Shown here piece after piece: positions 5,401-37,356 of a stretch of 37,356 nucleotides of DNA. Origin of the DNA: a virus; IMG/VR virus record IMGVR_UViG_3300025694_000013, positions 1-37,356 of that record; one strand, given 5' to 3'. The notes under the pieces were generated by a model, which was not told the origin of the DNA, ran no database searches, and worked only from the letters and a program-made list of their open reading frames with translations. Numbering within the stretch: the stretch's first letter is position 1; each line of letters begins with the position of its first letter. The translations under genes were made by a program, and so were the position numbers.

Positions 5401-8400
5401 TGCTCCATACAACTGGACTATTGTCGATTTGGGTGGCGCTCCTGTAGGGAACCTACTTTTGGACACTAGCTACGGAAGCGGAGCTGAGGCTGCTTACTCG
5501 GTCCGTAAGTTGCGCACCGCGTATACGGGGCCTGCTATAAAAGTCCAGGACACCGTAGGAGGTGCTACGCAGGACATCTATTTCGACGCTAACGACAACC
5601 TTGACGAAGCTGCCATAATCTCTTACGGGGGCTCTAACGACGTTTTCGTAGAGACCTGGTACGACCAGTCAATCAACGGCAATGATGCTACACAGGGTAC
5701 GTCTACTGCTCGTCCAAAGATTTACGACGGTACAACTGGCGCGTTGGTGAAGGAGAATGGGAAGTTGGCGTTAGACTTTGATGGGGTATCAGAGAATTTC
5801 ACAAGCACAATCAGTAACATAACTCAAAGTTTCGACGTCTACACAGTCCACAACTTCAACACCACACCAACAGCAACGCAACGACTTTACGACAGCGACA
5901 ACGGAGGAAGAATAACCAGAGGCTCAAACAGTACTGCAAACAATTTCGCATTCGCGGGTACAGTATTAAGTTGGTCACCACAGCAAACAGGACAAGTTCA
6001 AGAAACAACGGTATACAACGGAGTCTCATCACTTGTTAGGGTAAGCGGAACACAAACCGCGAGCGGGGACGCTGGTACAAACGCAACGGGTACGGATTTA
6101 GTTATTGGCGCAGATAAAACCGCAAGCACTCAATTCATAGATGGTCAGATTCAAGAATTAATTATTTTCGATAACAGCAAAAACGCAACCGACCGCACCG
6201 ACATCGAAGAAAACGTAGGCGACTACTTCACCCAAAACACGCCACTGCTCGACACGTATTCAGGTGCGGCGGCGGCGTACTCGTTGAGGCTTTTGGATTC
6301 GAGCTATGTTGGTTCAGCGGTAGAGGTTCAGGATACGGTAGGTGGAGCAACTCAGGATATTGGGTTCAATGTATTCGGTGAGCTCGATACGGTAGCCCTG
6401 GCTGCTTACGGGGGTTCTAATGATGTGTTTGTAGCTACCTGGTACGACCAATCAGGCAATAGCAATGACGCAACACAGGGTACGTCCGCTAATCGTCCAA
6501 AGATTTACGACGGTACGACTGGGGTCGTGTTAGAGAACGGGAAGCCTATCATAAATCTCGTATCGGGTAACAGTTGCACGTTGCTGTTGAATACAACGAT
6601 AACTAGCTCAACAACTCACATTTTTGGAGTCGCTGAATTAGACAGCACATCGAACAAAGTCATGATTGGCACAGCTGCTGGAAGTGGTATATATATTGCT
6701 AATAACTCTGACTCAAATAATGCTGTTGTTGGCAGTTCACTTTATATAAATGGGGCAAGTTCGTCAATTTCAACTAGAGACCAATTAAGCGACCAATTTC
6801 AAAATCAAACATCCTTTAATAGTATTCAAAATCTATCTGCTGCGAGCCAAACGCGTATTGGTATGCAAAATGGCGCAGGTGATAGTTATAAAATGTTTAA
6901 TACTCAAGAGTTTATTCTTTATACATCCGCGCAATCAGCCTCCAACCGCACAGGCATTGAAACCAACATCAACACGTTCTACGACATCTATACTGAGCCT
7001 GTAGCGCCTTTGTTGTTGAATAACTATCCTGGTGCTGCTGCGGCTTACTCATTGCGTAGGATTAACTCTAGCTATCAGGGTTCTGCTGTACTGGTGCAGA
7101 CGGCCCTTAACACTAAGGGACCAGTCTATATCGGCTTCGATTCCAATAACGACTTGGACACTACTTCATTGGCTACCTACGGAGGTAGCGAAGACGTGGT
7201 GGTAGCGGGATGGTTGGACCAGTCGGGCAACGGGAACGATGCCTCTCAAGCTACATCCGCTAATCGTCCTAAGATTTACGACGGGACGACGGGCGTGGTG
7301 ACGGAGAACGGGAAGCCTGCGGTTGACTTTGACGGTACTGATGACCAATTAGAAATAACTCGGTTCTCATATACTGCACTTACAGCAATCGCAGTTGCAA
7401 AAACAAGCACGCCCGCAGCGGACAACGCTCAGGTTATTGCTCAAGTTGATGGTTTTCTATTGAAGTCAGCCCAAACAGGAACGGACTATCCAAGATTCCA
7501 AGCATACGACACAGCGTACAGAACGGCAGAGTATCAGGTCGACAGTTCGGACACCCAGCTTTTACTGTTTGGATTTATTAGCGGAGGCAACGCGAATATT
7601 TACGTCAACGGAACGGCAGGAACAACGGCATCGGTTGGAGCGTTAAACAATCCAACAAATAACATTTTCATCGGTAAATTTCCCACCCTGAGCAACAGCG
7701 GCAACATCGGGCCAATTCAGGAGGTAATAATTTACGACAGCGACCAATCCGCCAACCGCACCGACATCGAGGATAACATCGGAGGCTACTATGACATCCC
7801 ACTGGCTGGCTTGTTGGACGAGAATCCAGGAGCGGCTGCTGCTTATAGCTTGCGTAGACTAAGCTCTACGTACACAGGCAGTGCTATACAGGTACAGCGA
7901 GCAGATAACGTTGGTGGAACGACTGACATAGGCTTCGACTCTTACGGAGACTTAGACACTACGGCTTTGACTACAGCTGCTCAAGGGAATGATATGGTGG
8001 TGGCTACGTGGTATGACCAGAGTGGTAACAGCAACGATGCCTCTCAAGCTACATCCGCTAATCGTCCAAAGATTTACGATGCTACGACGGGTGTGGTAGA
8101 TGATAACGGAAAGCCTGCGGTTGAGTTTGATGGTTCAAATGATGCTTTAACAAACACAGGCTTAACGACAAACAGCAACGAGACTTTCACAATCGTAGCG
8201 AATTACAACAACGCTTCGTCTTCAGGTACTTTGTTTGACAGCGCACAGACTGACGAGCATACTGCATTTCTTATCCAATCCGAATTTCGCGCAAAGTTTG
8301 GAAGTAACACGGATATGAAATATGGAGACGCGGCAACGGGTCAAAAACTGCACTGGATATATAAAGACAATACAACATCGAGCAGCAGTTACGGAGCAAT

Positions 8401-10222
8401 TGACGGAGGCGCAACGAACGCACTGAACTCAGGCACAAACAACGCGAACGGCATAACGTTAGGAAACAACAGAGTCTCAAGTTTTTCATTAAACGGTCAG
8501 ATGCAAGAGTTAGTTTTATTCGGTGAAAACAAAACAGCCAACCGCACCTCCATCGAAGAAAACATTGGCGGCTACTATGACATCCCACTCCCAGGTCTCT
8601 TAGACGAGAATCCAGGAGCGGCTGCTGCTTACAGCTTGCGTCGCCTGAGCTCTACCTACACAGGCAGTGCTATACAGGTACAGCGAGCTGACAACGTAGG
8701 CGGTACGACTGACATCGGCTTCGATGGTTACGGCAATCTAGACACAGCTGCACTTACGACGGCAGCTGCTGGCAATGATATGGTGGTGGCTACGTGGTAC
8801 GACCAGAGTGGTAACAGCAACGATGCTACACAGATTTCGTCTACTGCTCGTCCTAAGATTTATGACGGCACTACGGGCGTGGTGACGGAGAACGGGAAGC
8901 CTGCGGTGCAGTTTGATGGTAGCAACGACAGCCTCAAGTATACAGGTAATTTCTTTGGAGGTTCGGCGGCTTCAGGTTTTAGCGTTTCTTCATTTGATAA
9001 TGCAACCCGTGCAGCGAGGGAAATTATCTACGGATTACAAGACAGCACGGGGGCGCGTTATGATTTTCTATTGACGAGGCAACCAAGCAACGCAGGCGCT
9101 GGAACTACTCAAAATGGAATTGACTTCTATGTTGAAGGTGACTTTGAGCAAGGATTACACATTATAACGGATGTGAATCAGCATCTTTTGACTGCTGTTT
9201 ATTCAGACACCGTGAAACGTGACGTTTTTGATAATGGCGTTTTGGCTCATTCTTATTCTGATTTCAATCTCGGAACGCTTACAGATGGAACTGATTTTTT
9301 GATTGGTGAAGACATAAACGGCGGAAACGGAATCGACGGAAACATTCAGGAAATTGTTATTTACAACACCGACCAATCCGCCAACCGAACGAACATCGAG
9401 GATAACATCGGCGGCTACTATGACATCCCACTGGCTGGCTTGTTGGACGAGAACCCAGGAGCAGCAGCGGCATACTCACTGCGTCGCCTGAGCTCTACGT
9501 ACACAGGTTCAGCCATTCAAGTCCAGCGAGCAGATAACGTTGGTGGAACGACAGACATCGGCTTCGACTCTTACGGAGAGCTGGACACTACGGCCTTAAC
9601 TACAGCTGCTCAGGGTAACGATATGGTAGTGACGACTTGGTATGACCAGTCTGGTAACGGGAGAGATGTTACACAGGGTACGTCTGCTAATCGTCCTAAG
9701 ATTTACGACGGGACGACGGGCGTGGTGACGAATAACGGAAAGGCGTCAACATTATTCAACGGCACAAGTTCAAACATAGGCAGAAATAACGCGGATATGC
9801 AAAACCCTGCGCCGCTATCGACTTTTACCGTCAACGACCATACAAGCACGGGAGTAATTCAAGCAATTCATTCGCAACTAACAAGCCCTATTTTAAGATA
9901 TACGACTGCGAATAAATTGGAGTTAAGATTGTCCAGCACGAGTTATTTTAGCGCAAATGTTATAAGCGGACAGGTCAACACTTCGCTTGTAATTACAGCG
10001 AGCAACACCGCCACAATGCACGTCAATTCCTCGCAAGAATTTAGCGGCTCGGTTACAACGTATTCGAACGATAACAGGTTCAGCATCGGTTCGTATGTTA
10101 CTGGAGGCGCAGGATATTATTTCAATGGTTATATACAAGAGGTTGTTATTTACCGCACCGACCAATCCGCTAACCGCACCGACATCGAGGACAACATCAA
10201 CACGTTTTACGACATATACTAA
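2465..10222 (+). CDS. Giant modular adhesin/receptor-binding protein
   Basis: This 2585-residue protein starts one base after the previous stop. Residues about 63-92 form a PKD-like strand (YDFTVDWGDGNTD ... VTHDYG). Residues about 230-590 are BspA/DUF285 repeats of the type 'W[ND][VT]SS[VA]T-x-M-x-x-MF-x-GATSFN'. Near residue 631 a second PKD-like strand (YDFYVQWGDGDAEQ) begins a second copy of the module, with BspA repeats at about 800-950. From about residue 998 to the end come six units of about 260 residues. Each has 'GAAAAYSLRRL', '[DI]IGF', 'VATWYDQSGN' and 'RPKIYDGTTG', which resemble the arabinofuranosidase AbfB-type fold, followed by a variable lectin-like half. No signal peptide is present. 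It is probably a virion adhesin binding host glycans or surface protein; enzyme activity is unproven. Confidence 0.8.
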   Translation: MSGTIIGIANAFGASISPGAAQGSAPGPPPSQDPMNFYVTPYNSAGTSTPSGQYKLGLYSTGTYDFTVDWGDGNTDVITSYNQPEVTHDYGTVLPTDNFEITITPNVVFPLQAVNSWYFGNRNEGDGVKVRSIDQFGATVFYADQDIFYGCEALGTFASTISNVPTILNKVIGDGFFFNCDELAPAFYTAYWVGPFTGTAESFNEGKSVAGLPVGNSRGKFQLDFTPTNMFRAFKNQAIFNQNDAGLYWDVSSCNNFTECFSSCLRYNQPFPNWTFLTGTPVFAADMFKNAVDFNQNITGWNTSAFQDMGGMFARTLPVGSGGVTDSVFNQAIGVWNTDNVRDASAMFFNAVNFNQDLSNWFSTGSLQNIGPSSGGIVSMFSGATSFNGSVANWDLTNPLLTSVSYVFNGATSFDQPLNSWDVSGVSFFVGTFNGATAFNQNLALWDVSSGLFFSEMFKGATSFVGTSLTSWNVSSATDMQDMFNGATSFTNSLVFWNPSSVTNMSGMFNGATLANPNVSGWNISSLANASDMFTNSGLSSFNYQALLVAWAAQAPNIQSGVTLSSINQYANFGAPADAKAKLVNDYGWTITDLVNPNLPPPALTFTIDTTATEVGSTANNQYRLPLISSGTYDFYVQWGDGDAEQITSWNQAEATHTYAAAGTYTVKMFAVAATTTPIIDHISWASQDGTTLSAANDRLKVQDISGWASAVLYLNEYVFTNCENLNITTTSSPTFGSKVLRTSAFENCDNLSGDLSGWGTVGSPITGLAGTFYKNSTSNPNFNFVLQHNVGSLIQPFQNCAAFNNPLNNWDVSSVIGFTAAFSGASAFNQDISGWDTGNSSAFNAMFSNALAFNQNISSWNVASVTTFSQMFQGATLFNQPVGAWTTTSLTNLFSTFKNAAAFDQDLANWDVSGVTTAVDMLTGSNISAANWDALLIGWAAQGTGAGSLQANVTLSNINQVHGSVDSAATAAYNKLTSAPYNWTIVDLGGAPVGNLLLDTSYGSGAEAAYSVRKLRTAYTGPAIKVQDTVGGATQDIYFDANDNLDEAAIISYGGSNDVFVETWYDQSINGNDATQGTSTARPKIYDGTTGALVKENGKLALDFDGVSENFTSTISNITQSFDVYTVHNFNTTPTATQRLYDSDNGGRITRGSNSTANNFAFAGTVLSWSPQQTGQVQETTVYNGVSSLVRVSGTQTASGDAGTNATGTDLVIGADKTASTQFIDGQIQELIIFDNSKNATDRTDIEENVGDYFTQNTPLLDTYSGAAAAYSLRLLDSSYVGSAVEVQDTVGGATQDIGFNVFGELDTVALAAYGGSNDVFVATWYDQSGNSNDATQGTSANRPKIYDGTTGVVLENGKPIINLVSGNSCTLLLNTTITSSTTHIFGVAELDSTSNKVMIGTAAGSGIYIANNSDSNNAVVGSSLYINGASSSISTRDQLSDQFQNQTSFNSIQNLSAASQTRIGMQNGAGDSYKMFNTQEFILYTSAQSASNRTGIETNINTFYDIYTEPVAPLLLNNYPGAAAAYSLRRINSSYQGSAVLVQTALNTKGPVYIGFDSNNDLDTTSLATYGGSEDVVVAGWLDQSGNGNDASQATSANRPKIYDGTTGVVTENGKPAVDFDGTDDQLEITRFSYTALTAIAVAKTSTPAADNAQVIAQVDGFLLKSAQTGTDYPRFQAYDTAYRTAEYQVDSSDTQLLLFGFISGGNANIYVNGTAGTTASVGALNNPTNNIFIGKFPTLSNSGNIGPIQEVIIYDSDQSANRTDIEDNIGGYYDIPLAGLLDENPGAAAAYSLRRLSSTYTGSAIQVQRADNVGGTTDIGFDSYGDLDTTALTTAAQGNDMVVATWYDQSGNSNDASQATSANRPKIYDATTGVVDDNGKPAVEFDGSNDALTNTGLTTNSNETFTIVANYNNASSSGTLFDSAQTDEHTAFLIQSEFRAKFGSNTDMKYGDAATGQKLHWIYKDNTTSSSSYGAIDGGATNALNSGTNNANGITLGNNRVSSFSLNGQMQELVLFGENKTANRTSIEENIGGYYDIPLPGLLDENPGAAAAYSLRRLSSTYTGSAIQVQRADNVGGTTDIGFDGYGNLDTAALTTAAAGNDMVVATWYDQSGNSNDATQISSTARPKIYDGTTGVVTENGKPAVQFDGSNDSLKYTGNFFGGSAASGFSVSSFDNATRAAREIIYGLQDSTGARYDFLLTRQPSNAGAGTTQNGIDFYVEGDFEQGLHIITDVNQHLLTAVYSDTVKRDVFDNGVLAHSYSDFNLGTLTDGTDFLIGEDINGGNGIDGNIQEIVIYNTDQSANRTNIEDNIGGYYDIPLAGLLDENPGAAAAYSLRRLSSTYTGSAIQVQRADNVGGTTDIGFDSYGELDTTALTTAAQGNDMVVTTWYDQSGNGRDVTQGTSANRPKIYDGTTGVVTNNGKASTLFNGTSSNIGRNNADMQNPAPLSTFTVNDHTSTGVIQAIHSQLTSPILRYTTANKLELRLSSTSYFSANVISGQVNTSLVITASNTATMHVNSSQEFSGSVTTYSNDNRFSIGSYVTGGAGYYFNGYIQEVVIYRTDQSANRTDIEDNINTFYDIY
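2640..5445 (+). repeat. Duplicated PKD-like + BspA module in adhesin gene
   Basis: Two copies of the same architecture lie in tandem (about 2640-4250 and 4340-5445). Each has a PKD-like 'WGDG' strand, a linker, BspA/DUF285 repeats of about 25 residues, and the same C-terminal cap: NYQALLVAWAAQ in copy 1 and NWDALLIGWAAQ in copy 2, each followed by 'NVTLS-x-INQ'-like and 'W-T-I-x-DL' segments. Copy 1 has roughly twice as many BspA repeats. Unit boundaries are approximate. Confidence 0.7.
5458..10219 (+). repeat. Six tandem AbfB-like/lectin-like units
   Basis: Units start at about 5458, 6247, 7012, 7804, 8593 and 9433. Each begins 'LLD..PGAAAAYSLRRL' and ends 'NRT[DS]IE[DE]NIGGYYDIP' or 'NINTFYDIY'. 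The first about 110 residues are strongly conserved; in units 4-6 this extends to the DNA, with long near-identical stretches. The remaining about 150 residues differ strongly between units, though they keep a jelly-roll-like pattern. This is a conserved frame carrying exchangeable binding faces. Confidence 0.75.
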
Positions 10223-15749: not shown

Positions 15750-16030
15750 ACGCGAAAGAACTCAAAGAAAAAATTATAGCTGCGGGTCACAAGGCGGTAG
15801 AGCAGCTTATTAAGGTAGCCAAAGAAGATATCATAAAGCCCGATATAGAAGACGAGCTGGCCGCCGACAGATTAAAGAACGCAGCGGCTACAAAAAAACT
15901 TGCTATATTCGATGCGCTAGAGATACTTAACCGTATTGAGCAGGAGAGAGAAAATTTAGAGGCGATGGAAAAGCGTGGTGATTCATCTACTAATACCAAG
16001 CAAGGATTTGCGGAAAGACGTTCAAAATAA
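15746..16030 (+). CDS. Probable terminase small subunit
   Basis: This 94-residue, mostly helical protein starts MNAKELKEKIIAAGHKAVEQ. The middle contains a conserved-looking helix, ADRLKNAAATKKLAIFDALE, and a basic C-terminus (KQGFAERRSK). It lies directly upstream of and overlaps the large terminase gene, the standard position of TerS. Its 'LAADRLKNAAATKKLAIFDA' helix is, to my recollection, common to proteins in this position in Bacteroidota phages. TerS oligomers recognise phage DNA and activate TerL. No helix-turn-helix is obvious, so the call rests on position, size and composition. Confidence 0.6.
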   Translation: MNAKELKEKIIAAGHKAVEQLIKVAKEDIIKPDIEDELAADRLKNAAATKKLAIFDALEILNRIEQERENLEAMEKRGDSSTNTKQGFAERRSK

Positions 16031-18254
16031 ACTGCTTATTTATCTAAATGATATAGTTCCCCAAAAGGTACTTACAAGGAAGAATAAAGCTAAAAGTTGG
16101 CAATACGGTTATAACGAAGACTATGACTTTGTCGTTATATCAAAAGACGGTACGGTAGGTGATGTGGTAGAGATACAGGGCGTACGTATTGCACTCCCTA
16201 TGGTTTGTAGTAACCCTATAGAGCGAAGCAAATCTAAAAAAGAACAGTACTGGCAGCCCTTAGGGTACCCTAAAGAACTTACACGTATCAAGACGATATT
16301 TCAGTGGAACGAGATGCCCGCTGATTTTAAAGACAGGTGGGTAGATTTCGTGGAGCGCGAGTTCGACAGACGTGAAAGCGGCGCCTGGTTTATGAATAAT
16401 GGAGTCCCTACCTACATAACGGGCTCACACTATACGTACCTCCAGTGGACTAAAATTGACGTAGGGCTCCCTGACTTTCGAGAGGCCAACCGTATATTCT
16501 ATATCTTCTGGGAGGCTTGCAAGGCAGACAGCCGATGTTTCGGTATGTGCTACTTAAAGATTCGTCGTTCAGGATTTTCTTTTATGGGTTCTTCGGAATG
16601 CGTCAATATAGGAACTCTCGCTAAGGACGCTCGAGTTGGAATACTTTCTAAAACGGGTGCTGACGCCAAAAAGATGTTTACCGATAAGGTGGTTCCTATA
16701 TCAGCGAACTACCCGTTCTTTTTCAAGCCCATACAAGACGGTATGGATAAGCCCAAAACAGAGCTTGCATATCGGGTGCCTGCGTCAAAGATTACCAAGC
16801 GCAATATGTACCTCGATGAGTCTGAAGAGCTTGACGGACTTGATACTACTATAGACTGGAAGAATACAGCCGACAACAGCTATGACGGAGAGAAGCTTTT
16901 GCTCTTGGTTCACGACGAAAGCGGTAAGTGGGAGAAGCCAGAGAATATCCTCAATAACTGGCGCGTCACCAAAACTTGTTTGCGATTGGGTAGCCGCATC
17001 ATAGGGAAGTGTATGATGGGTTCTACGTCCAACGCGCTAAGCAAAGGCGGTGGGAACTACAAAACGCTATACTCTCAATCTGACGTAAGCAACCGCAACG
17101 CTAACGGCCAGACCAAGAGCGGTATGTACAGCCTATTTATTCCTATGGAATGGAATTTTGAAGGGTATATCGATAGGTATGGTATGCCCGTATTTATAAA
17201 GCCTTTGCACGATGTTAAAGGTATTGACGGGCAGTCTATAAAGATGGGGGCTATTGAGTATTGGGAAAACGAGGTGGCTTCACTTAAGAACGACCCTGAT
17301 GCGCTCAACGAGTTCTATCGCCAATTCCCGCGTACTGAGTCCCACGCTTTTCGTGACGAGAGTAAGCAGTCTATATTTAACCTGACTAAGATATATCAGC
17401 AAATTGACTATAACGACGAGATGATAAAGGAGCACTACCTTACTAGGGGTTCTTTTCATTGGAAAGACGGCCAAAAAGACAGCCAAGTTATATGGACGCC
17501 AGAGCGTAACGGTCGGTTTTTACTCGGGTGGACGCCTCCCGCTAGGATGCAAAACCACGTCATTATTCGTAACGGGATGAAGTACCCTGGCAATGAGCAT
17601 ATCGGCTCGCTGGGGTGTGACCCGTACGATATCTCGGGTGTCGTAGGGGGGAGGGGCTCAAACGGCTCTCTCCACGGGATGACTAAATTCAATATGGACG
17701 ATGCGCCGAGTAACGAGTTTTTTTTAGAGTATGTCGCTCGTCCTCAGACGGCAGAGATATTTTTTGAAGAGGTACTGATGGCTTGCGTTTTTTATGGTAT
17801 GCCTATCCTTACGGAGAATAATAAACCGAGGCTGCTCTACCACTTTAAGAATAGAGGCTACCGCAAGTTTTCTATGAACCGCCCCGACAAAAAATTCAAT
17901 AAGCTGTCCAAGACGGAAAAGGAGTTAGGCGGCATACCGAATACATCTGAAGACGTTAAGCAGTCTCACGCTTCAGCTATCGAGACGTATATCGAAAAAC
18001 ACGTAGGCATTGATATGGAAGGGACGTACCGAGAACAGGGCGATATAGGTACTATGCCATTTACTAGGACGCTCGAAGATTGGGCTAAATTTGATATCAA
18101 CAACAGGACTCGATTTGACGCTACGATAAGCTCGGGATTGGCTATTATGGCTAACCAAAAACACATCTATCAACCTGTTGAAAAGCAATCGAAATTATCT
18201 GTTACCTTTGCTAGATACAACAATCGTGGAAATATAAGCGAACTAGTTAAATAA
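15975..18254 (+). CDS. terL: Terminase large subunit (packaging ATPase/nuclease)
   Basis: This 759-residue protein is the motor that pumps DNA into the prohead and cuts it. A degenerate Walker A region lies at about residues 195-208 (KIRRSGFSFMGSSE), without the classic GKT/GKS, as in other divergent phage terminases. Walker B is at about 309-315 (LLLVHDE). The nuclease domain begins near D549 (GSLGCDPYD). The start is uncertain: GTG at 15975 overlaps the small terminase gene by 56 bases, and TTG at 16008 is an alternative just before the conserved-looking KLLIYLNDIVPQKVLTRKNK. No ATG lies near. It is followed by the portal gene with a TAATG overlap. The family call is strong; the exact N-terminus is not. 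Confidence 0.85.
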   Translation: MVIHLLIPSKDLRKDVQNKLLIYLNDIVPQKVLTRKNKAKSWQYGYNEDYDFVVISKDGTVGDVVEIQGVRIALPMVCSNPIERSKSKKEQYWQPLGYPKELTRIKTIFQWNEMPADFKDRWVDFVEREFDRRESGAWFMNNGVPTYITGSHYTYLQWTKIDVGLPDFREANRIFYIFWEACKADSRCFGMCYLKIRRSGFSFMGSSECVNIGTLAKDARVGILSKTGADAKKMFTDKVVPISANYPFFFKPIQDGMDKPKTELAYRVPASKITKRNMYLDESEELDGLDTTIDWKNTADNSYDGEKLLLLVHDESGKWEKPENILNNWRVTKTCLRLGSRIIGKCMMGSTSNALSKGGGNYKTLYSQSDVSNRNANGQTKSGMYSLFIPMEWNFEGYIDRYGMPVFIKPLHDVKGIDGQSIKMGAIEYWENEVASLKNDPDALNEFYRQFPRTESHAFRDESKQSIFNLTKIYQQIDYNDEMIKEHYLTRGSFHWKDGQKDSQVIWTPERNGRFLLGWTPPARMQNHVIIRNGMKYPGNEHIGSLGCDPYDISGVVGGRGSNGSLHGMTKFNMDDAPSNEFFLEYVARPQTAEIFFEEVLMACVFYGMPILTENNKPRLLYHFKNRGYRKFSMNRPDKKFNKLSKTEKELGGIPNTSEDVKQSHASAIETYIEKHVGIDMEGTYREQGDIGTMPFTRTLEDWAKFDINNRTRFDATISSGLAIMANQKHIYQPVEKQSKLSVTFARYNNRGNISELVK

Positions 18255-20689
18255 TGAGAGATGTTCAGGTTAATATAGCATCTGCCTCGTTCCCTACCCA
18301 ATTTGTTTCTGACGCTGAAAAAGCGACTTATGAGTATGGATTGCAGATTGGACAAGCCATTCAATATGAGTGGTTTAAGAGGGATGGAAACGGTTGTCGT
18401 TTTTACAGTCAATGGAGAGATTTTAATCGACTCCGATTGTACGCTAGAGGAGAGCAGTCTATTGCTAAGTACAAAAACGAGCTCTCGGTCGATGGCGACC
18501 TTTCTTATTTGAACCTGGACTGGACTCCGATTCCAATCATCCCTAAGTTCGTAGATATCGTAGTAAACGGTATGTCGGACCGCTTGTTTGACGTAAAGGC
18601 TTATGCTCAAGACGCTATGTCGTCGGCGAAGCGCAGTAAGTATCAAGATATGATAGAGGCTCAGATGGTCTCTAAAGACCTTTTGGTGCAAATCAAAGAA
18701 AGCTTTGGCGTAGACCCTTTTACCGTGTCTCCTGACGAGCTTCCCAATAGCGATGACGAGTTGTCGCTGTATATGCAACTCAACTATAAGCCAGCTATCG
18801 AAATAGCAGAGGAAGAGGCTATCAATACGCTGCTTGAGCAAAACAAATACAACGACACGCGCCAGCGCGTAGACTACGACCTTACGGTTTTAGGCGTCGG
18901 TATGGTCAAGCACGAGTTCTTAAAGGGCGACGGGGTACAGGTTAGATATGTAGACCCCGCAAACGTGGTATATAGTTATACTGAAGACCCGTTTTTTCAG
19001 GATAATTTTTACTGGGGAGAAATTAAGACAGTTCCTATCACTGAGCTTATCAAGATAGACCCTACGCTTACTACGGATGACCTCAAGGAAATTTCAAAGC
19101 ATTCCCAGAGCTGGTACGATTATTATAACGTACAGCAATTCTACGATAACGATATCTTCTATCAAGATACCACTACCCTTATGTACTTCAACTACAAGAC
19201 AACGCAGAAGTTTGTCTATAAGAAGAAGGTGATGGATGGCGGAGGAGCCAAGGTGGTTGAGAAAGACGATACGTTTAACCCGCCAGAAGAGATGATGCAG
19301 GAGGGTCGATTCGAAAAAATCGAAAAGACTATCGATGTGTGGTATGAAGGCGTTATGGTTATGGGGACTAATATTATTCTTAAGTGGGAGATGGCGGAAA
19401 ATATGGTCCGCCCTAAATCTGCATCGCAGTACGCTACGCCAAATTACTTGGCTTGTGCGCCACGTATGTACAAGGGTAATATCGAATCTTTGGTTCGGCG
19501 TATGATTCCTTTGGCGGACCAGATACAGATTACCCACCTTAAATTACAGCAAGTAATGTCGCGCATCGTCCCTGACGGTGTGTTCATTGATGCTGACGGG
19601 CTTAACGAAGTAGACCTCGGGACAGGCAATGCATACAACCCCGAGGACGCCTTGCGGCTGTACTTCCAGACGGGTAGCGTAGTCGGGCGTAGCTATACAC
19701 AGGATGGCGAGTTTAATAACGCTCGAGTACCTATTCAGCAACTCACCAGCAACTCGGGGCAGTCTAAGATTAGCGCTTTAATTGGGAACTACAATCACTA
19801 TCTCAATATGATACGTGATATTACGGGCCTCAACGAAGCGCGTGATGGCTCTATGCCTGACCCTAATTCGCTCGTAGGGGTACAAAAGCTAGCGGCACTA
19901 AACTCTAACGTAGCTACTCGACATATCTTAGATGGTAGCTTATTTATCTTGAAGTCGTTGGCTGAAGCTTTGTCGTGCAGGGTAGCCGACATCCTGGAGT
20001 ATGCGGATTTCAAGGAAGAGTTTGCTAATCAAATCGGCAAGTATAATGTTTCTATCTTAAACGATATCAAAGATTTATATATCTACGATTTCGGTGTCTT
20101 TATTGAGATAGCTCCTGACGAAGAGCAGCGGGCTATGCTAGAGCAGAATATCCAGATGGCTTTATCTAAGAACGACATTAACTTGGAGGACGCTATCGAT
20201 ATCAGAGAAATTAAAAACATTAAGTTGGCAAACCAACTCCTCAAGCTCAAGCGCAAGAAGAAGCAAGAGCGCGAGGAAGCTATGCAACTTCAACAGCAGC
20301 AGATGCAGGCTCAGCAGCAGTTCGAGTCGCAGAAGTTAGCCACGGAGGCTCAGATGATGAAGATACAGGCTGAAGGTCAGCAGAAAGTGCAGATTAAGCA
20401 GGCCGAGGTGGCTTTTGATATTGAGCGTATGCAGATGGAAGCCCAGCTTAAAAACCAGTTGATGCAGCAGGAGTTTAATTACAATATGCAGCTCAAGGGT
20501 GTAACTGAGGAACTTATTGCTGGACGAGAGGATATGCGTGAAGACGCTAAAGCAAAGCGTATTAGCCAGCAGAATACAGAGCAGTCGAAACTAATTAATC
20601 AGCGTAAGAATAACTTACCGCCTATCAATTTTGAATCAAATGAGGATAGCCTTGATGGCTTTGACCTTGCTGAGTTCGAGCCACGATGA
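18254..20689 (+). CDS. Portal protein
   Basis: This 811-residue protein directly follows the large terminase (TAATG overlap) and precedes scaffold and capsid genes. The N-terminal region has FYSQWRDFNRLRLYARGEQS, then PIIPKFVDIVVNGMSDRLFD (about residues 90-118), typical of long portals of crAss-like and marine phages. The mid region holds VDPANVVYSYTEDP and LADQIQITHLKLQQVMSRIV (about residues 420-440). Near residue 530 lies TGLNEARDGS-type sequence found in portals. Residues about 660-747 form a Gln-rich coiled coil (QLQQQQMQAQQQFESQKLAT). The portal forms the 12-mer ring through which DNA enters and leaves the head. The length is usual for this lineage. Confidence 0.85.
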   Translation: MRDVQVNIASASFPTQFVSDAEKATYEYGLQIGQAIQYEWFKRDGNGCRFYSQWRDFNRLRLYARGEQSIAKYKNELSVDGDLSYLNLDWTPIPIIPKFVDIVVNGMSDRLFDVKAYAQDAMSSAKRSKYQDMIEAQMVSKDLLVQIKESFGVDPFTVSPDELPNSDDELSLYMQLNYKPAIEIAEEEAINTLLEQNKYNDTRQRVDYDLTVLGVGMVKHEFLKGDGVQVRYVDPANVVYSYTEDPFFQDNFYWGEIKTVPITELIKIDPTLTTDDLKEISKHSQSWYDYYNVQQFYDNDIFYQDTTTLMYFNYKTTQKFVYKKKVMDGGGAKVVEKDDTFNPPEEMMQEGRFEKIEKTIDVWYEGVMVMGTNIILKWEMAENMVRPKSASQYATPNYLACAPRMYKGNIESLVRRMIPLADQIQITHLKLQQVMSRIVPDGVFIDADGLNEVDLGTGNAYNPEDALRLYFQTGSVVGRSYTQDGEFNNARVPIQQLTSNSGQSKISALIGNYNHYLNMIRDITGLNEARDGSMPDPNSLVGVQKLAALNSNVATRHILDGSLFILKSLAEALSCRVADILEYADFKEEFANQIGKYNVSILNDIKDLYIYDFGVFIEIAPDEEQRAMLEQNIQMALSKNDINLEDAIDIREIKNIKLANQLLKLKRKKKQEREEAMQLQQQQMQAQQQFESQKLATEAQMMKIQAEGQQKVQIKQAEVAFDIERMQMEAQLKNQLMQQEFNYNMQLKGVTEELIAGREDMREDAKAKRISQQNTEQSKLINQRKNNLPPINFESNEDSLDGFDLAEFEPR

Positions 20690-21837: not shown

Positions 21838-23277
21838 ATGGCTGTATTGACAAACCCAGGGTTTGATTTAACCCCAGCACCAGAGCAAAAAGCTTTGGCG
21901 TCAAATTATATCACTGACTTTAATTTCTTGAACCAGTATCTTCCTGATACTTACGAGAAAGAATTCGAGCGCTACGGAAACCGTACTATCGCTGGTTTCT
22001 TGCGTATGGTAGGAGCTGAGATGCCTTCTAACTCTGACCTCATCAAGTGGGCTGAGCAAGGGCGTTTGCATATTAAGTATGACGCTTGTGTTACAGCAAC
22101 TGCTGACGGAGCGGATACTGCAACGTGGGCTATCACTCTTCCTACTGGAACTGCCAATAGCGCTTTGCGTGTAGGTCAAACTATTATGATTTCTTCTGCG
22201 GCAGGAGCTGCTACGCTTAATAACAAAGCTGTTATTACTCAGGTAGACGCCGTTGCTGGTGGAGCTTTTAGTATTAACGTAGCTTACTATGAGGCTGGCG
22301 GTCAGGCTGCTGGTATGAACGCGTCTGCTGCTTGTACCATCTTCGTTTATGGTTCGGAGTTTGCCAAAGGCACAAATGGTATGGTTGGTTCTTTGGAGGC
22401 TGAGGACAACTTCTTTGAGAATAAGCCAATTATCTTGAAGGATAAGTACGCTGTCAACGGTTCTGATATGGCTCAAATCGGTTGGGTTGAAGTAACTTCT
22501 GAAAACGGAGCTACTGGCTACCTATGGTATTTGAAGTCTGAGCACGAGACACGTCTTCGTTTCGATGACTACTTGGAGACTTCTATGATTGAAGCCGTCC
22601 CTGCGGAAGTAGGCTCGGGTGCTTTGGCAGCTTTGAGTTCTCAAGCAACAGCTGGAGCTGCTGGTAACACCGCCGCAGGTTCTGAAGGTGTGTTCTATGT
22701 AGTTAACAACCGAGGAAACGTATTCCAAGGTATCCCAACTACATTGACTGAGTTTGACACTATCATCCAGCGATTGGATAAGCAGGGTTCTATCGAAGAG
22801 AATGTAATCTTCGTTAACCGTGACTTCTCATTCGCTATCGACGATATGTTGGCTGCTCAGAACTCTTACGGTGCAGGCGGTACTTCGTACGGTCTCTTCG
22901 ACAATGACGAAGAGATGGCGTTGAACCTGGGCTTCCGTGGCTTCCGACGTGGTTATGACTTCTATAAGTCTGACTGGAAGTACTTGAACGACCCAACTAT
23001 GCGCGGTGGTTTGAATGGCGGTAAGGTAGACGGATTGTTGGTGCCAGCTGGCTCAACAACTGTATACGACCAGATTATGGGTAAGAACGCTAAGCGACCT
23101 TTCCTCCACGTTCGGTACCGCGCTTCAGAAACTGAAGACCGCCGTTACAAGACTTGGATTACTGGTTCTGCTGGTGGAGCACGTACTAGCGACCTCGACG
23201 CTATGGAAGTCAACTTCCTGTCTGAGCGAGCTGTATGTACGCTCGGCGCGAACAACTTCTTCTTGTTCCGTGACTAA
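21838..23277 (+). CDS. Major capsid protein
   Basis: This 479-residue protein lies between the scaffold gene and a strong terminator, as expected for the most abundant virion protein. The N-terminus (MAVLTNPGFDLTPAPEQKAL, then FNQYLPDTYEKEFERYGN-like sequence starting NFLNQYLPDTYEKEFERYG) and the middle (ENVIFVNRDFSFAIDDML, NLGFRGFRRGYDFYKSDWKY) resemble capsid proteins of crAss-like and marine Bacteroidota phages, which have the HK97 fold. Residues about 75-165 (DACVTATADGADTATW to AACTIFVYGSEF) look like an inserted beta-rich domain. Synonymous codon choice here seems more uniform than in neighbours, fitting high expression, but this was not computed. The leader is A-rich without a Shine-Dalgarno sequence. 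Confidence 0.85.
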   Translation: MAVLTNPGFDLTPAPEQKALASNYITDFNFLNQYLPDTYEKEFERYGNRTIAGFLRMVGAEMPSNSDLIKWAEQGRLHIKYDACVTATADGADTATWAITLPTGTANSALRVGQTIMISSAAGAATLNNKAVITQVDAVAGGAFSINVAYYEAGGQAAGMNASAACTIFVYGSEFAKGTNGMVGSLEAEDNFFENKPIILKDKYAVNGSDMAQIGWVEVTSENGATGYLWYLKSEHETRLRFDDYLETSMIEAVPAEVGSGALAALSSQATAGAAGNTAAGSEGVFYVVNNRGNVFQGIPTTLTEFDTIIQRLDKQGSIEENVIFVNRDFSFAIDDMLAAQNSYGAGGTSYGLFDNDEEMALNLGFRGFRRGYDFYKSDWKYLNDPTMRGGLNGGKVDGLLVPAGSTTVYDQIMGKNAKRPFLHVRYRASETEDRRYKTWITGSAGGARTSDLDAMEVNFLSERAVCTLGANNFFLFRD

Positions 23278-31995: not shown

Positions 31996-32952
31996 ATGGC
32001 ATTTGTAACAGCAGCACTACAGTTAGCTTCGGCGGGCGTAAGTACGTACCAAGCCATTGAGGCTAACCGTCGTATTAAAGACGCTCAGAAAGCAGCTCAG
32101 AAGGCGACGCGTGAGGCGAAACGCCTCACCGAGATTAACCCTATGCAGGAGCTTTCTGTCCCTACAGAAGCCTATATGCAGGCACGAGAGAGCCAGCAGC
32201 GATTGATGGCCCAACAGGTGCAGGCGGCACAGGAAGCTGACCCGAGGGGAGCGGCACGTAACGCGGGACTCGCTGTCGGAGGTAGCCTCGCTTTAGAAGA
32301 CCAGTTACGGTCGGCTCAGGAAATGATGCAATACAGAAGGGATATAGCTGTAAAAGGCCAGGACGTAGCTAATATAGATGCTCGGCGAGCCATCGCGGAG
32401 GCGGAGGCTTCTGGGTCTCAGCAAGCTGCTGCTGACTCACAAGAAGCGAAGGCTGAGGCTATCACCTCGGGGGCTGAGATGCTGGCTGGTGTGGGGGCTA
32501 CGATTGATGCTGGACAGGCGTTGTATAAGCAAGGTCGTGATGCTAAGATGATTGGTAAGGAGTTAGGTGGTGACCAACGAAGCCAGTTCCTAGCGCAAAC
32601 CACTCCTATTTTACAGCAACAGATGGCTGGTATGACAGCTGGTCAACGTGAACAGTTCGCTCGGCAATATGGTCTTGACTTAGATACTATGCAAACCGCT
32701 TTAGGAGACGGTGGTAACTTCGGTGATTTCTTTGGCTCACTTGGCGGCCTCACTCAGCAAGAGCTTTTGGGTCAGGTATTGACTAATGACCAGATACGGG
32801 CTGCGAAAAACTACACCCCTCAAAACGCTACACAGGCTTCTCAAGGCTCGCAATATCAGGGTATATATGGGACTTTCCTTACTCCTCAATCCGCTGGTCT
32901 GGCTGGGGTAGGTCAAGAGTTTGTAATGCCGCAACAACTGATAGGTTTATGA
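31996..32952 (+). CDS. Probable internal virion (ejection) protein
   Basis: This 318-residue protein is rich in Ala and Gln. The N-terminus is a hydrophobic/amphipathic helix (MAFVTAALQLASAGVSTYQA), followed by a long charged coiled coil (KDAQKAAQKATREAKRL) and further Ala/Gln-rich helices to residue about 180 (ARRAIAEAEASGSQQAAADS). The last third is Gly/Gln/Ala-rich (TAGQREQFARQYGLDL, NATQASQGSQYQGIYG). This layout is that of the smaller ejection proteins of podoviruses such as T7 gp14, which enter the envelope with the DNA. It follows the tail genes and precedes two larger probable internal proteins. Its stop overlaps the next start (ATGA). The function is inferred. Confidence 0.6.
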   Translation: MAFVTAALQLASAGVSTYQAIEANRRIKDAQKAAQKATREAKRLTEINPMQELSVPTEAYMQARESQQRLMAQQVQAAQEADPRGAARNAGLAVGGSLALEDQLRSAQEMMQYRRDIAVKGQDVANIDARRAIAEAEASGSQQAAADSQEAKAEAITSGAEMLAGVGATIDAGQALYKQGRDAKMIGKELGGDQRSQFLAQTTPILQQQMAGMTAGQREQFARQYGLDLDTMQTALGDGGNFGDFFGSLGGLTQQELLGQVLTNDQIRAAKNYTPQNATQASQGSQYQGIYGTFLTPQSAGLAGVGQEFVMPQQLIGL

Positions 32953-34673
32953 GCTATTATAAGTACGTAAAGAGAGACGAGAAGAGCAGGGTAGACTGGG
33001 GTGCTATCACTACTAACCTTGTTGATACGCTCAGGGAGCAGGAGGCTGAACGCGAGAAACAACGTGAGGAGATTGATGCTTCGTCTCGGGCTACAGGAGA
33101 GGTCTTGTCCGACGCTCCGCAAGGGGCTAATAAAGCTGCGAGTACTTGGATTTTAAACGCTTCATCTGACGCCTCTCAGTACTTAATGTCTCAGAACCGA
33201 TTGCTAAAATCTGGTTTCCTTGACCCCAGAGATTTTACTGTCAATCGACAGAACGTAGAAAACAGCTTTAAGTCTTTGCAGACTATGGCTGAAAGCGCAC
33301 ATAAAGAAAGCCAGCTGACCCAGGATAGGATTAACGAAGGGAAGGCTATGAATTTTGAAGGCGTTGTCGGCCAAAGACTTGATGACTTTCAAAACTTCGA
33401 GAAGACGCAGGTATACTTTAACCCTACCAATGGCGTAGCTAGCATAGGTATTAAAGATAAAGATGGCAAGCTTTCTGATGACCCATCCAAGTTTAGCACT
33501 ATTGAGGGGGCTATTGCTCAGATGCAATCTCGATATGATAAATTAGATTACACATCTCCTCTAGTTAAATGGTCTGAAAGCATTGGCTCTGACGTGCGAG
33601 TTGTACGGGAAAACGGAATACTAACTGTTGAAGACCCTTCGGTTCGAGAGGATGTAAACTCTTCTTTAGATGACGCTATTGGTGCTCTTATGGTAAATGA
33701 CCTAAGAGTATTGAGTATCGCTGAGGACTTAGGTATGGTGGCTCCTGATGATTACGACCTTGGGGCTACAGAAACTACGTGGGGCGATAAAGGCGGAAAA
33801 GTGGGTGTGTCTACTGCTAATGACGGAACGGTAATTCCAAAAGCAAACGAGGCATTAAAAGAAGCTGTTAAGGAAAGACTTAAAAAAGAAGGTATGGCGC
33901 TGCTAGATTATAAGCAGACGGCTATGCCGAAAGACTATTCTAGGGATGCGTATTATAGAAGCTTAGGTGATAAGAATAAAAAGCTAATAAGTAAATTAGA
34001 TAACGTAGCGGGTCTTTATTCTGGGAATGTTGAGGAGTTGCAAAGTACTATACAAGATATAATGGGTGGAAACACTACGGTTACTTACGCAAAAAGGACT
34101 AATAGAGGTATAGAAATAAAAACAGCAGATGGCAAAGGAGACGCTTTCTTAAGTTTTTATACCGAAGATAAAGGTGGGAATGAAATTCTGATGTCAGCCG
34201 CAGACTTTACTAAATCAGCGGTAAAGATTTTAACTGGAGATACTGAAGGTAGTTACGATGACATCCTTGAAGAGGGGATGTGGAGTCCTAAAAGGACAAA
34301 CTTCAATAATATCGACGAGGTAGAGTTTAAAAGAGGCGCAGAGCCCGTTGATTATATGGCTCCATACAGAGAGTTAGAGAATAAAATAACAGCTAAGCCT
34401 TTTACATCCAGTGACAACTCAGCCGCTTCAACATTATCTAAGATATTATCGCCTTTAGGATTTACGGTTGAGCCTGATGGTGGTCCATCGAATAAAATTA
34501 TTGTCAGAGATTTAAGGGGTGATAAGGAATCTATTACAATTCCTACGAAGGAATCTTCCGAGGATGCTGATTATCAAATGGCTAAATTAAAGGCTTGGAT
34601 AAGCGAGCATAGAACAGATATGGAAAAGGCTAGGTTTGGTCAGCAGCAAGGGGGTCGTCCTATATTTAACTGA
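32949..34673 (+). CDS. Probable internal virion protein, shared C-terminal domain
   Basis: This 574-residue protein starts MSYYKYVKRDEKSRVDWGAI, then a charged helix (LREQEAEREKQREEIDASSR). No signal or membrane segment is seen. Most of it is mixed helix and sheet without a recognised domain. Near the C-terminus, about residues 493-560, it has STLSKILSPLGFTVEPDG, then KIIVRDLRG, a variable stretch and LKAWISEHRTD. This resembles a segment near residues 134-213 of the next protein. Codon use looks more A/T-rich in the second half (about 33900-34560) than in neighbours, by eye. Position among ejection-type genes suggests a protein packed in the head. It follows the previous gene with an ATGA overlap. 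Confidence 0.6.
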   Translation: MSYYKYVKRDEKSRVDWGAITTNLVDTLREQEAEREKQREEIDASSRATGEVLSDAPQGANKAASTWILNASSDASQYLMSQNRLLKSGFLDPRDFTVNRQNVENSFKSLQTMAESAHKESQLTQDRINEGKAMNFEGVVGQRLDDFQNFEKTQVYFNPTNGVASIGIKDKDGKLSDDPSKFSTIEGAIAQMQSRYDKLDYTSPLVKWSESIGSDVRVVRENGILTVEDPSVREDVNSSLDDAIGALMVNDLRVLSIAEDLGMVAPDDYDLGATETTWGDKGGKVGVSTANDGTVIPKANEALKEAVKERLKKEGMALLDYKQTAMPKDYSRDAYYRSLGDKNKKLISKLDNVAGLYSGNVEELQSTIQDIMGGNTTVTYAKRTNRGIEIKTADGKGDAFLSFYTEDKGGNEILMSAADFTKSAVKILTGDTEGSYDDILEEGMWSPKRTNFNNIDEVEFKRGAEPVDYMAPYRELENKITAKPFTSSDNSAASTLSKILSPLGFTVEPDGGPSNKIIVRDLRGDKESITIPTKESSEDADYQMAKLKAWISEHRTDMEKARFGQQQGGRPIFN

Positions 34674-34678
34674 TAATA

Positions 34679-37356
34679 ATGAACGAGAAGTACCAAGAGT
34701 TTTACGATTATTTAAAGTCTCAAAACTTAACAGACCTTGATGCGGAATCGTTTCAAATTGCTTACTCAGAGCCAGAGAAGTTTAACGAGCTATGGGGGTA
34801 TATATCTGAGCAAAATCTTACCGACCTAACTAGGGATGAGTTCTTTGACTCTTATTTTAGTGATGTAAAAAAAAAAGATACGGCATCCGTATCGGAGCCT
34901 GGTTCTTTGGTCTCACCAGAGCTTGAAGTTCCTGTTGAGACAGCTATTGCCCCAGCGACTGAAGCTGCTGAACCAGCGACTATCCTAACGGGAGCGGCTG
35001 ACCCTGACTTTTTTGAGGAGCGTATGGAAATGATTTCGCCTCAACTTATCGACCGAGGCGATGAGGACGAAGTGGCTCAAGAGCTTACCGATGTGTTTAA
35101 GCCTTACGGATTTAAGGTTGAGCCCGCTGGTATAGGAGATGCTATAAAGGTAACCGCAGGCAATGGGAAGTCTATTGAGGTTGACCTTGACCCATTTGAG
35201 ATGCCTAAGATTCTAAGCCCCTTTGGCCTAGACTTCAATACCAAAACCGAGACCGCTGAAGCGAAAAAGCTACAAGACTTTTTAAGGGAAAACAGGCAGG
35301 AAGGATTAGACGCTCCCCGCAGGTTTGTAACCAATAAGCAACGAGACGATGAGGTAAAGCGCATTAATCAAAAGCAAAAAGAAATAAACCGCTCCGCTCA
35401 AGACTACCTTAAAAGAAAACTAGAATTTCAAAATAAATACCCTCAGTTTTTAACCTATGACTCAGAGTATATAAAAAACAACCCCGAGGAGTCCCAGAGG
35501 TTTTTGAATGATAGAGACAGCCTCGAAAAAGAACGAGAGTTTCTAGTTGAAATAGACCAAAAGGCAAAAGAAGAAGGGGCTCAGCTAGATAGGCTAGCGG
35601 GAGAGTATACTGAGATGTTAGCCCAAAGAGGTTACTGGAGTGGAGGTGTGTTTAGAAATGAGTTTATTCAAGGCGTCGCTTACATTGCGGCTGGAGCCTA
35701 TGACTTTGGTTTAGATACAGGCTACGACCCTAAGTTTCTTATGGAGACTGACCCCGAGTTCTTTAGGGATAACTACCTTAAAGAAGCTGCGGACAAGGGC
35801 TATGACGTGCCGTCTGCGTCTGATATGACGGTTGATGAGTTTAAAGCTTGGATGAAAACCGACAAGGGTATCCCAGCAAAGGAAAGTATAGCCATACAGA
35901 CTAGTATAGTAGACACCAAGCTCAAGAGGCGTAAGCGCGGAGAACCAATTGATTACGAAGAAGCCTTAAACGCATACTCTCAATACGCTACCTCTAAAAA
36001 TATGGAGGTAACGGACGGTGAGCTTGCTGCTTTACGTCGCGGGCTTGACTTCTTGAAAGACCCCGAGTCTACTCCAGAAGCTGCCGACTTGATGTACGAG
36101 TCGTTTTGGGGTGGAGCTTTGTTAGGGGTTACTCGTTCGCTACCAGCTATACTAGTCCCCGGTGGCTTTATTATTCGTACAGCAGCTATGTACTCTCAAA
36201 TAAGCAGCGCCTTAGAGCAAGAGATGGCTGGAGACCCTGACTTCCAGAATATATCTGAAGCTGAGAGGTTCCGATTGAAATTAGCTATTGGCTCTGTGTC
36301 TTCGGTTTTAGAAGCTGTGGGATTGAGAAACGTTTTGAAACAAAAAGGTTTACTCACGGGTCTCCTTATGAAGGCTTTGAAAAAAACTCCTGCAAATGTC
36401 AAGGGTAAGGCTTTTAATGAAGTTGTTATGCGTGAAGTTGACAGCGCTATCGCTAGGGGAGCGTTGGTTGTAACAAGCGCGGGCTTAGCTGAGTTTGAAA
36501 CGGGATTTTTGCAAGAGGGTGTGGATATAGGTTTTAAGAGTATCTACAACGAGATGAAGGAGAAGGAGATGTTTGAAACTCCAGAAGCAGGATTTTGGAG
36601 TTGGGAAACGCTTAGTAGTATGCTTTATGCAGGAGCTCAAGAGGCTGTGGGTGGTTTTGTACTGGGAACTCCTGGGGCTATCAGCGCAGCGCGAAGGAGC
36701 TATGACTTTACGGCTGTCGATGACGCGACGTTTGAGATGTTTGAAAACGTAAGCTCCCAAACAGCTCGTGGCGAGCTGACTTACCGCCATATGTTTTATA
36801 CAAACCTCCAGGCTAAGATTAACCAAGGCAAAATAAGCAAGGAGGATGCACAGCAAGAGATGGACAACCTCGATGAGGTAATCGCCGTCAACCGAGATAT
36901 CCCGTCCGACTTAACGGTAAGCCAGAAGAAGAAGGCTTTAGGGATATTACTTAGGAAGAAAGACTTACAGGAACAAATTGAAGGGAAAGACCCTATCCTT
37001 GTTAAACGCCAGCAAGAAGAACTGAACAGCCTTAACGGGGAATTAGACCAGATACTATACGGAACACCAGAAACAGATGCCATTCAAGAGCAAGGCCCAG
37101 AGAGCGTGGATGCACCAGAACCTACCCGAGGTAGCGAAGCGGTGGGAGAAGGAGTACCCGACATCGGAGAACCTACCGCAGAGGTTGAAGCCCAAGACGA
37201 CGTTACGGATGAAGCTCCAGCGCCGACGACGGAAGTCGCGGTAGAAGAAACCGTTCCCGTAGAGGTAGAACCTGTAACCGCTCAAAGCGCGAGATATGCT
37301 CAGCTAATCGAGGACACCCCCGATAGTGTAGTTGAGCTGTTCGAGAATTGGACAAA
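34679..37356 (+). CDS. Very large internal virion/cargo protein, 5' part
   Basis: The frame opens at ATG 34679 and has no stop to the window end (892 codons), so only the N-terminal part is visible. Residues 3-32 and 33-62 form a tandem repeat with QNLTDL at 15-20 and 45-50. Residues about 134-213 (ELTDVFKPYGFKVEPAG ... LQDFLRENR) match the C-terminal domain of the preceding protein. Residues about 478-510 (GALLGVTRSLPAILVPGGF), about 590-610 and about 645-670 (SSMLYAGAQEAVGGFVLG) are hydrophobic, possibly membrane-active. An acidic Pro/Glu linker fills about 798-870. Giant proteins in this position in crAss-like phages are cargo or virion RNA polymerase subunits; no polymerase motif is visible here. 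Confidence 0.7.
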   Translation, partial: MNEKYQEFYDYLKSQNLTDLDAESFQIAYSEPEKFNELWGYISEQNLTDLTRDEFFDSYFSDVKKKDTASVSEPGSLVSPELEVPVETAIAPATEAAEPATILTGAADPDFFEERMEMISPQLIDRGDEDEVAQELTDVFKPYGFKVEPAGIGDAIKVTAGNGKSIEVDLDPFEMPKILSPFGLDFNTKTETAEAKKLQDFLRENRQEGLDAPRRFVTNKQRDDEVKRINQKQKEINRSAQDYLKRKLEFQNKYPQFLTYDSEYIKNNPEESQRFLNDRDSLEKEREFLVEIDQKAKEEGAQLDRLAGEYTEMLAQRGYWSGGVFRNEFIQGVAYIAAGAYDFGLDTGYDPKFLMETDPEFFRDNYLKEAADKGYDVPSASDMTVDEFKAWMKTDKGIPAKESIAIQTSIVDTKLKRRKRGEPIDYEEALNAYSQYATSKNMEVTDGELAALRRGLDFLKDPESTPEAADLMYESFWGGALLGVTRSLPAILVPGGFIIRTAAMYSQISSALEQEMAGDPDFQNISEAERFRLKLAIGSVSSVLEAVGLRNVLKQKGLLTGLLMKALKKTPANVKGKAFNEVVMREVDSAIARGALVVTSAGLAEFETGFLQEGVDIGFKSIYNEMKEKEMFETPEAGFWSWETLSSMLYAGAQEAVGGFVLGTPGAISAARRSYDFTAVDDATFEMFENVSSQTARGELTYRHMFYTNLQAKINQGKISKEDAQQEMDNLDEVIAVNRDIPSDLTVSQKKKALGILLRKKDLQEQIEGKDPILVKRQQEELNSLNGELDQILYGTPETDAIQEQGPESVDAPEPTRGSEAVGEGVPDIGEPTAEVEAQDDVTDEAPAPTTEVAVEETVPVEVEPVTAQSARYAQLIEDTPDSVVELFENWT

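Follow-up and report, generated by a model that had tools for sequence, protein, structure and literature searches.

Two neighbouring proteins encoded in the late gene cluster of an IMG/VR virus record (37,356 bases, analysed over its whole length and referred to as the window) carry homologous copies of one domain, here called the module. One copy lies at the C-terminus of a 574-aa protein, A, and the other in the N-terminal region of the giant protein encoded beside it, B. At the level of family profiles and of folds predicted independently for each copy, the homology of the two stretches is confirmed, and the earlier note's proposal that adjacent proteins share a domain thereby gains the backing of both. 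As to function, judgement inclines, by a modest balance, to a small adaptor domain, acidic in most copies, that belongs to internal and probably ejected proteins. It forms a fixed part of the giant and an optional part of its neighbour, where it is swapped together with A's C-terminal half.

The gene order of the window runs from terminase (15975-18254) through portal (18254-20689), a virion structural protein in the capsid position (21838-23277) and a 1803-aa structural protein to three genes on the + strand, C, A and B. C (31996..32952), directly upstream of A, is an open reading frame for a 318-aa protein that profile comparison places in the phi18:3 gp120 family; A (32949..34673) and B (34679..37354) are defined by their open reading frames and their relatives. 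Of B the window contains the first 892 residues, and the frame is still open where the window stops; in the longest relatives the open frame reaches 3205-4163 aa. All three genes lie in the late cluster, downstream of the terminase, portal and capsid genes, a trait of podovirus ejection proteins.

A search with the window's portal protein matched 87 phage records. By portal, the nearest named relatives are MW202828 (73.6%), Maribacter phage Panino (47.6%) and Flavobacterium Elemovirus phages (46%), with Cellulophaga phages of the Pervagoviridae (35.5%) and Pachyviridae phages (27-29%) further away. The relatives compared here come from 20 distinct contigs, which together with the window and MW202828 make 22 records; loci fetched repeatedly from one contig were counted once. 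Counts for A leave out L009 and L011, whose contigs end before A's C-terminus, and counts for B leave out L007, L009, L010 and L011, which do not extend as far as the module of the giant. Bacterial and archaeal genome contigs searched with A gave six pattern matches and no relatives, and viral contigs searched with the MW202828 giant gave no match.

The earlier note had described a series of motifs occurring in the same order in the two proteins, and its motif positions are all right to within a residue or two: STLSKILSPLGFTVEPDG occupies A residues 494-511 (34428-34481), KIIVRD residues 516-521 and LKAWISEHR residues 547-555, while ELTDVFKPYGFKVEPAG occupies B residues 135-151 (35081-35131), AIKVTAG residues 155-161 and LQDFLRENR residues 198-206. 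The extents given there need to be moved, as the domain begins about 20-25 residues earlier; in the AlphaFold2 models it spans A residues about 471-566 (34359..34646, + strand; profile match 34383-34631) and B residues about 109-211 (35003..35311, + strand; profile match 35021-35311).

By themselves, the window's two sequences show no more than a suggestive resemblance. The A and B segments align at E 7e-5 in a single BLASTP comparison, and the Smith-Waterman score of segment against segment is reached in 1 of 2000 shuffles, that of whole A against whole B in 65 of 300. Profiles built with relatives make the homology firm: eight A C-termini against eight sequences of the B stretch align at E 3.6e-6, and eight A against 14 B sequences at E 1.3e-8 over 77 columns. 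When A was cut into 16 tiles and compared with the B profile, the two tiles covering the module scored E 3.6e-6 and 1.6e-8 and the other 14 E 0.15-0.8; among 18 tiles of the giant compared with the A profile, the four covering the module scored E 1.3e-5 to 8.9e-8 and the other 14 E 0.025-0.87. All 28 controls therefore stand at E 0.025 or worse, even though a few of these non-covering tiles touch the module edge. Single-family searches cross over as well: a search with the A HMM recovers the giants of MW202828 (E 5.2e-9), L031 (9.6e-7), L032 (9.2e-6) and the window (1.1e-4), and one with the B HMM recovers the C-termini of A from L004 and L005 (E 4e-6), with no match to the window's own A copy (E 2.3). 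Pfam holds no family matching A or B at E 1 or less; a PHROGs search with 13 module sequences gave a best E of 0.0062 and no family matched by more than two of the 13; and a search of the PDB by sequence with A, the portal and the capsid-position protein of the window returned no significant match. The polyubiquitin rows that topped the PDB sequence search were taken as repeat artefacts, no single stretch passing.

The AlphaFold2 models, computed from an A-only and a B-only alignment, have mean pLDDT values of 78.6 for A and 72.2 for B, the latter a modest confidence with a spacer below 50. Both are predicted to consist of two short helices, a 15-residue helix, three short strands and a long helix, so that the order helix-strand-strand-strand-helix agrees between the two models. 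In B the spacer precedes the last helix, and it is missing in MW202828. A fold search of the PDB with both models gave nothing significant at a limit of E 0.001 (E 0.05 at best for A and 0.84 for B), and VIA-align 2 against the PDB reached best Z scores of 4.0 (A) and 3.8 (B), at which many unrelated rows are tied, among them AcrIF24, release factors, T7 gp1.2, HicA, ribosomal proteins and the polymerase gamma accessory subunit. Among the predicted viral proteins of BFVD the A model finds A0A516L3Q6 (315 aa; E 1.1e-4, rmsd 1.7 Å) as the sole row at E 0.001 or less; five more A0A516 entries and A0A5Q2W6N8 follow with probability 0.99-1.00 but E 0.0011-0.12, and most of these six are pieces of 1124-1481 aa. 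Such look-alikes of the A model make it probable that further long viral proteins contain the domain.

Whole-record searches of 10 records never gave more than two matches in a record, of which one lies in A and one near the giant's start. The giant's copy is clear in 17 of the 18 records that reach the module and weak in L053 (HMM E 0.0028; profile E 2.4e-4). A's copy was found in 11 of the 20 records that reach A's C-terminus, that of L010 being cut by the contig end, and went undetected at profile sensitivity in nine (L013, L031, L032, L038, L039, L040, L041, L053 and MW202828). Both copies are present in nine records, in one of which the giant's copy is cut by the contig end. In the phage collection, a search with the B module matched MW202828 only (E 0.01); the same collection searched with the A module gave no match, and the Elemo, phi38:1, phi18:3 and Panino proteins examined hold no significant module. 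Gundel gp74, with a best E of 7.7e-4 among 59 windows, was not counted as a carrier.

The alternative A C-termini of the L031 group, L053 and MW202828 look similar by eye (strand, I-x-IP, helix), but profiles give only E 0.038-0.64, and the claim that they demonstrably carry the module was rejected; a global-mode profile comparison scored 0.61 against 0.18-0.91 in 15 control windows. A domain with the same order of elements, too diverged to see, may nevertheless sit in these C-termini, and if so, the argument that the module is optional in A becomes weaker. Deep in the giants of the L031 group there is likely a partial further copy, as judged by a profile match of E 1.6e-5, with single-sequence HMM rows at E 0.05-4.6; it lies at residues 1841-1868 in L031, 2283-2323 in L038 and 1836-1876 in L041.

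The sequence of A is mosaic, with a junction that recurs near residue 325. The window and L001 are 98.9% identical in nucleotides over window positions 33913-35400, and their A proteins are 92-98% identical in residues 330-574 and 39-48% in residues 120-330. Other pairs agree before the junction and differ after it: identity before and after the junction is 93-100% and 13-42% for L001 and L005, 83-100% and 11-25% for L013 and L014, and 66-100% and 11-26% for L031 and L040, while L031 and L032 share 21-35% before it and match better after it (41-71%). A's copy of the module is carried on a C-terminal half swapped by recombination at this junction; in this phage the exchangeable half begins at about residue 322 (33913..34673, + strand) and bears the module. 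The contigs are metagenomic, and chimeric assembly could mimic exchange in a single case. A motif beside the junction (e.g. YKQTAMP, YKETAMP, FKETPM) is common to most aligned relatives.

The N-terminus of B (residues 1 to about 63) is swapped separately: L002 and L031 are 89/72% identical there and 52% or less beyond. One version of this N-terminus is present in two distant clades (L002, L031). It consists of two repeat units, each of about 30-35 residues, with KKK after the second; in the window the tandem repeat (34679..34876, + strand), recognised by repeat alignment, has units of about 31 aa and ends in KKK. None of 2000 shuffles reached the repeat score in each of the window, L002 and MW202828. 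Within one protein the repeat halves of L002, L031 and MW202828 are 63-70% identical, against 10-38% between versions, and in the other five versions the halves are 33-45% identical, with an excess over the between-version identity that is small or absent.

The giant's copy of the module is under stronger purifying constraint than A's copy, with dN/dS of 0.05-0.17 (nine pairs) against 0.29-0.67 (eight pairs); these ranges cover pairs with dS under 1, several of which rest on small dS, and leave out the window/L001 pair, in which the A copy gives 1.62 at dS 0.015 and the B copy has no synonymous change. The two copies do not diverge in step. Compared with the window, the L005 contig is 29% identical in the A module and 77-79% in the B module, and L014 is 72% identical in the former and 64-65% in the latter. 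The B modules of L013 and L014 are 100% identical in the module bins (dN 0.010), and their A C-termini are unrelated. Net charge ranges from -10 to -19 in 14 giant copies and from -1 to -10 in eight A copies, and is -2 in the MW202828 giant copy.

The earlier note called A and B internal virion proteins, which is plausible from sequence comparison by way of the relatives of C, along an indirect route. In profile-profile comparison C matches phi18:3 gp120, phi38:1 gp99, elemo gp20 and the Panino counterpart at E 1.2e-9 (controls 0.13-0.51), and the phi18:3 record (NC_021794) marks gp120, gp121 and gp123 as detected by MS/MS. A is tied to gp121 by the same gene order only, the profile comparison giving E 0.081; against elemo gp19 it gives E 0.0027 over 57 columns. 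Residues 1-900 of B, taken as a profile, have no match to phi18:3 gp123 (E 0.24) or elemo gp18 (E 0.062), the controls lying at 0.085-0.45. The giants of relatives do match elemo gp18 by BLASTP (best E 1.8e-30), outside the part of the giant held in the window, and elemo gp18 in turn matches phi18:3 gp123 (E 4e-10).

The favoured adaptor reading can be put as follows. In this podovirus group, the domain is a constant piece of the giant's N-terminal region, placed after the two-repeat N-terminus and a linker, with a second copy at the C-terminus of many, though not all, versions of the upstream protein A. Both proteins would be internal cargo that leaves the particle before the DNA, and the module may serve as a protein-protein adaptor that ties its protein to a third component, such as the portal, a ring or another ejection protein. 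It would act in storage or ejection, and neither by pairing of the two copies nor as an obligatory packaging signal. A third-partner adaptor is favoured on two grounds: the giant's copy keeps a constant position under strong constraint, and phage N4 and crAss001 (below) offer parallels in gp50/gp51 and in gp45/portal; the adaptor role is drawn by analogy, since no solved structure matches.

The earlier note had suggested that the module may be a packaging or docking device that places both proteins in the head. Such a device could act through a common site or through copy-copy pairing, and would imply that both proteins need the module or that its copies match one another. Homologous domains at the facing ends of adjacent genes, the copy clearly kept in 17 of 18 giants and the association proposed in N4 between the giant's N-terminal domain and the neighbouring ejection protein (passages of PMC12633501) all speak for it, and the idea has partial support. 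As a general mechanism it is not supported: no copy was detected in nine of 20 A proteins, the two copies diverge discordantly, and the nearly identical B modules of L013 and L014 beside unrelated A C-termini argue against an obligate shared head-targeting signal and against obligate pairing of copies. A required tag that loads both proteins into the head is thus unlikely, and the packaging and docking explanation as a whole is doubtful, although the module may dock via a third partner.

The module could instead be a generic folded bead, a stable and easily refolded unit in proteins that pass through the portal, partnerless and spread by domain shuffling. The likely partial third copy in the L031-group giants, the BFVD look-alikes that are mostly long viral proteins and the weaker constraint on A's copy would fit such a unit, but the giant's copy is fixed in position, and its dN/dS lies beyond the needs of an arbitrary spacer; this, too, seems an improbable account.

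HicA and dsRBD share the element order helix-strand-strand-strand-helix, which is also that of the module, and weak structural rows include HicA (5yrz, Z 3.6; 4p78, Z 3.0) and dsRBD (2mdr, Z 2.9). Even so, a nucleic-acid-binding domain of dsRBD/HicA-like arrangement is very unlikely. Nucleic-acid binding is disfavoured because the copies are mostly acidic; Z scores of 4 or less are uninformative; and HicA_toxin PF07927 has no match in the window, while seven of 14 control genomes match. Kinship with HicA or dsRBD was rejected on the low Z and the wrong charge. Chance or convergent likeness of a short GF-x-VE motif, to which the insignificant whole-protein comparison and the failure of the B HMM to find the window's own A copy might point, can be dismissed as scarcely credible in the face of the 77-column profile match, its 28 controls and the common element order of the two models.

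An idea that goes further than the adaptor reading is put forward as speculation of low probability: the junction between the two genes would be an interchange site, A's C-terminal half and B's two-repeat N-terminus would be independently swapped cassettes, and the shared domain would be a plug by which new ends are fitted to an ejection machine that stays constant. Each phage could then vary the mode of cargo delivery, or the host envelope partner to which the cargo goes.

Among podoviruses, the ejection (internal virion) proteins include T7 gp14-16 and P22 gp7/16/20, and domain swapping among the ejection proteins of T7-like phages is already known (PMC8954989). As here, the T7 and P22 ejection proteins form a small set of late proteins. 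In those systems a single enzymatic domain passes from one protein to another; in the present phages a domain that matches no enzyme is found in both neighbours at once (nine records), it is one of several alternative C-termini of A, and virion location and ejection are predicted.

For N4 it is proposed that the giant gp50 (vRNAP) associates through its N-terminal domain with the ejection protein gp51 (PMC12633501). The N4 arrangement of gp50 with gp51 and gp52 likewise places a giant beside a middle-sized protein (gp51, 644 aa), but no sequence link to the present system was found. The vRNAP_dom family PF21769 reaches E 0.057 in the L016 giant (14.2 bits against a cut-off of 27), in a region before which the window ends, and a profile of the giants' C-terminal parts searched against the PDB returned no polymerase.

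The crAss001 cargo proteins gp45/gp46/gp47 are stored in head and tail, and a compact gp45 domain (425-552) binds the portal, according to parts of PMC10172136. The nearest portal relatives of the window are other phages, and the PDB search by sequence described above, with A, the portal and the capsid-position protein, offers no significant match that would link the two. Phage polyvalent proteins (PMC5512222, in part) provide another point of comparison: the L016 giant likewise carries an ART-PolyVal domain (residues 1526-1691, E 2.7e-14), behind homologues of C and A, whereas the window's A and B lack Pfam matches and the window stops, at B residue 892, before the ART region. In the L041 giant, residues 827-887 form an FtsK gamma domain (E 1.9e-20). 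Among the titles and abstract openings of the papers searched, no description of the module was recognised, and its absence from print is not claimed.

Little is understood of the middle-sized and giant internal proteins that short-tailed phages encode, and their fast divergence makes them hard to annotate. With the small shared domain as a guide, such proteins could be sought in other viruses, and the A model already has look-alikes in several long predicted viral proteins. A domain fixed in the giant and borne on a cassette in its neighbour also gives a handle on which parts of the ejection apparatus are constant and which are exchanged.

Some further features of these loci deserve mention. 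The C homologue of L053 (2536-5001) is an 822-aa open frame with an extra C-terminal part that, on inspection by eye, resembles a peptidoglycan hydrolase. Its L002 counterpart (9170-10001) is split across two frames. Window positions 2465-10222 encode a protein of 2585 aa that carries DUF285 repeats (E 1.2e-105) and, at the C-terminus, an ArabFuran-catal/Laminin_G_3 region; it may be a surface or fibre protein.
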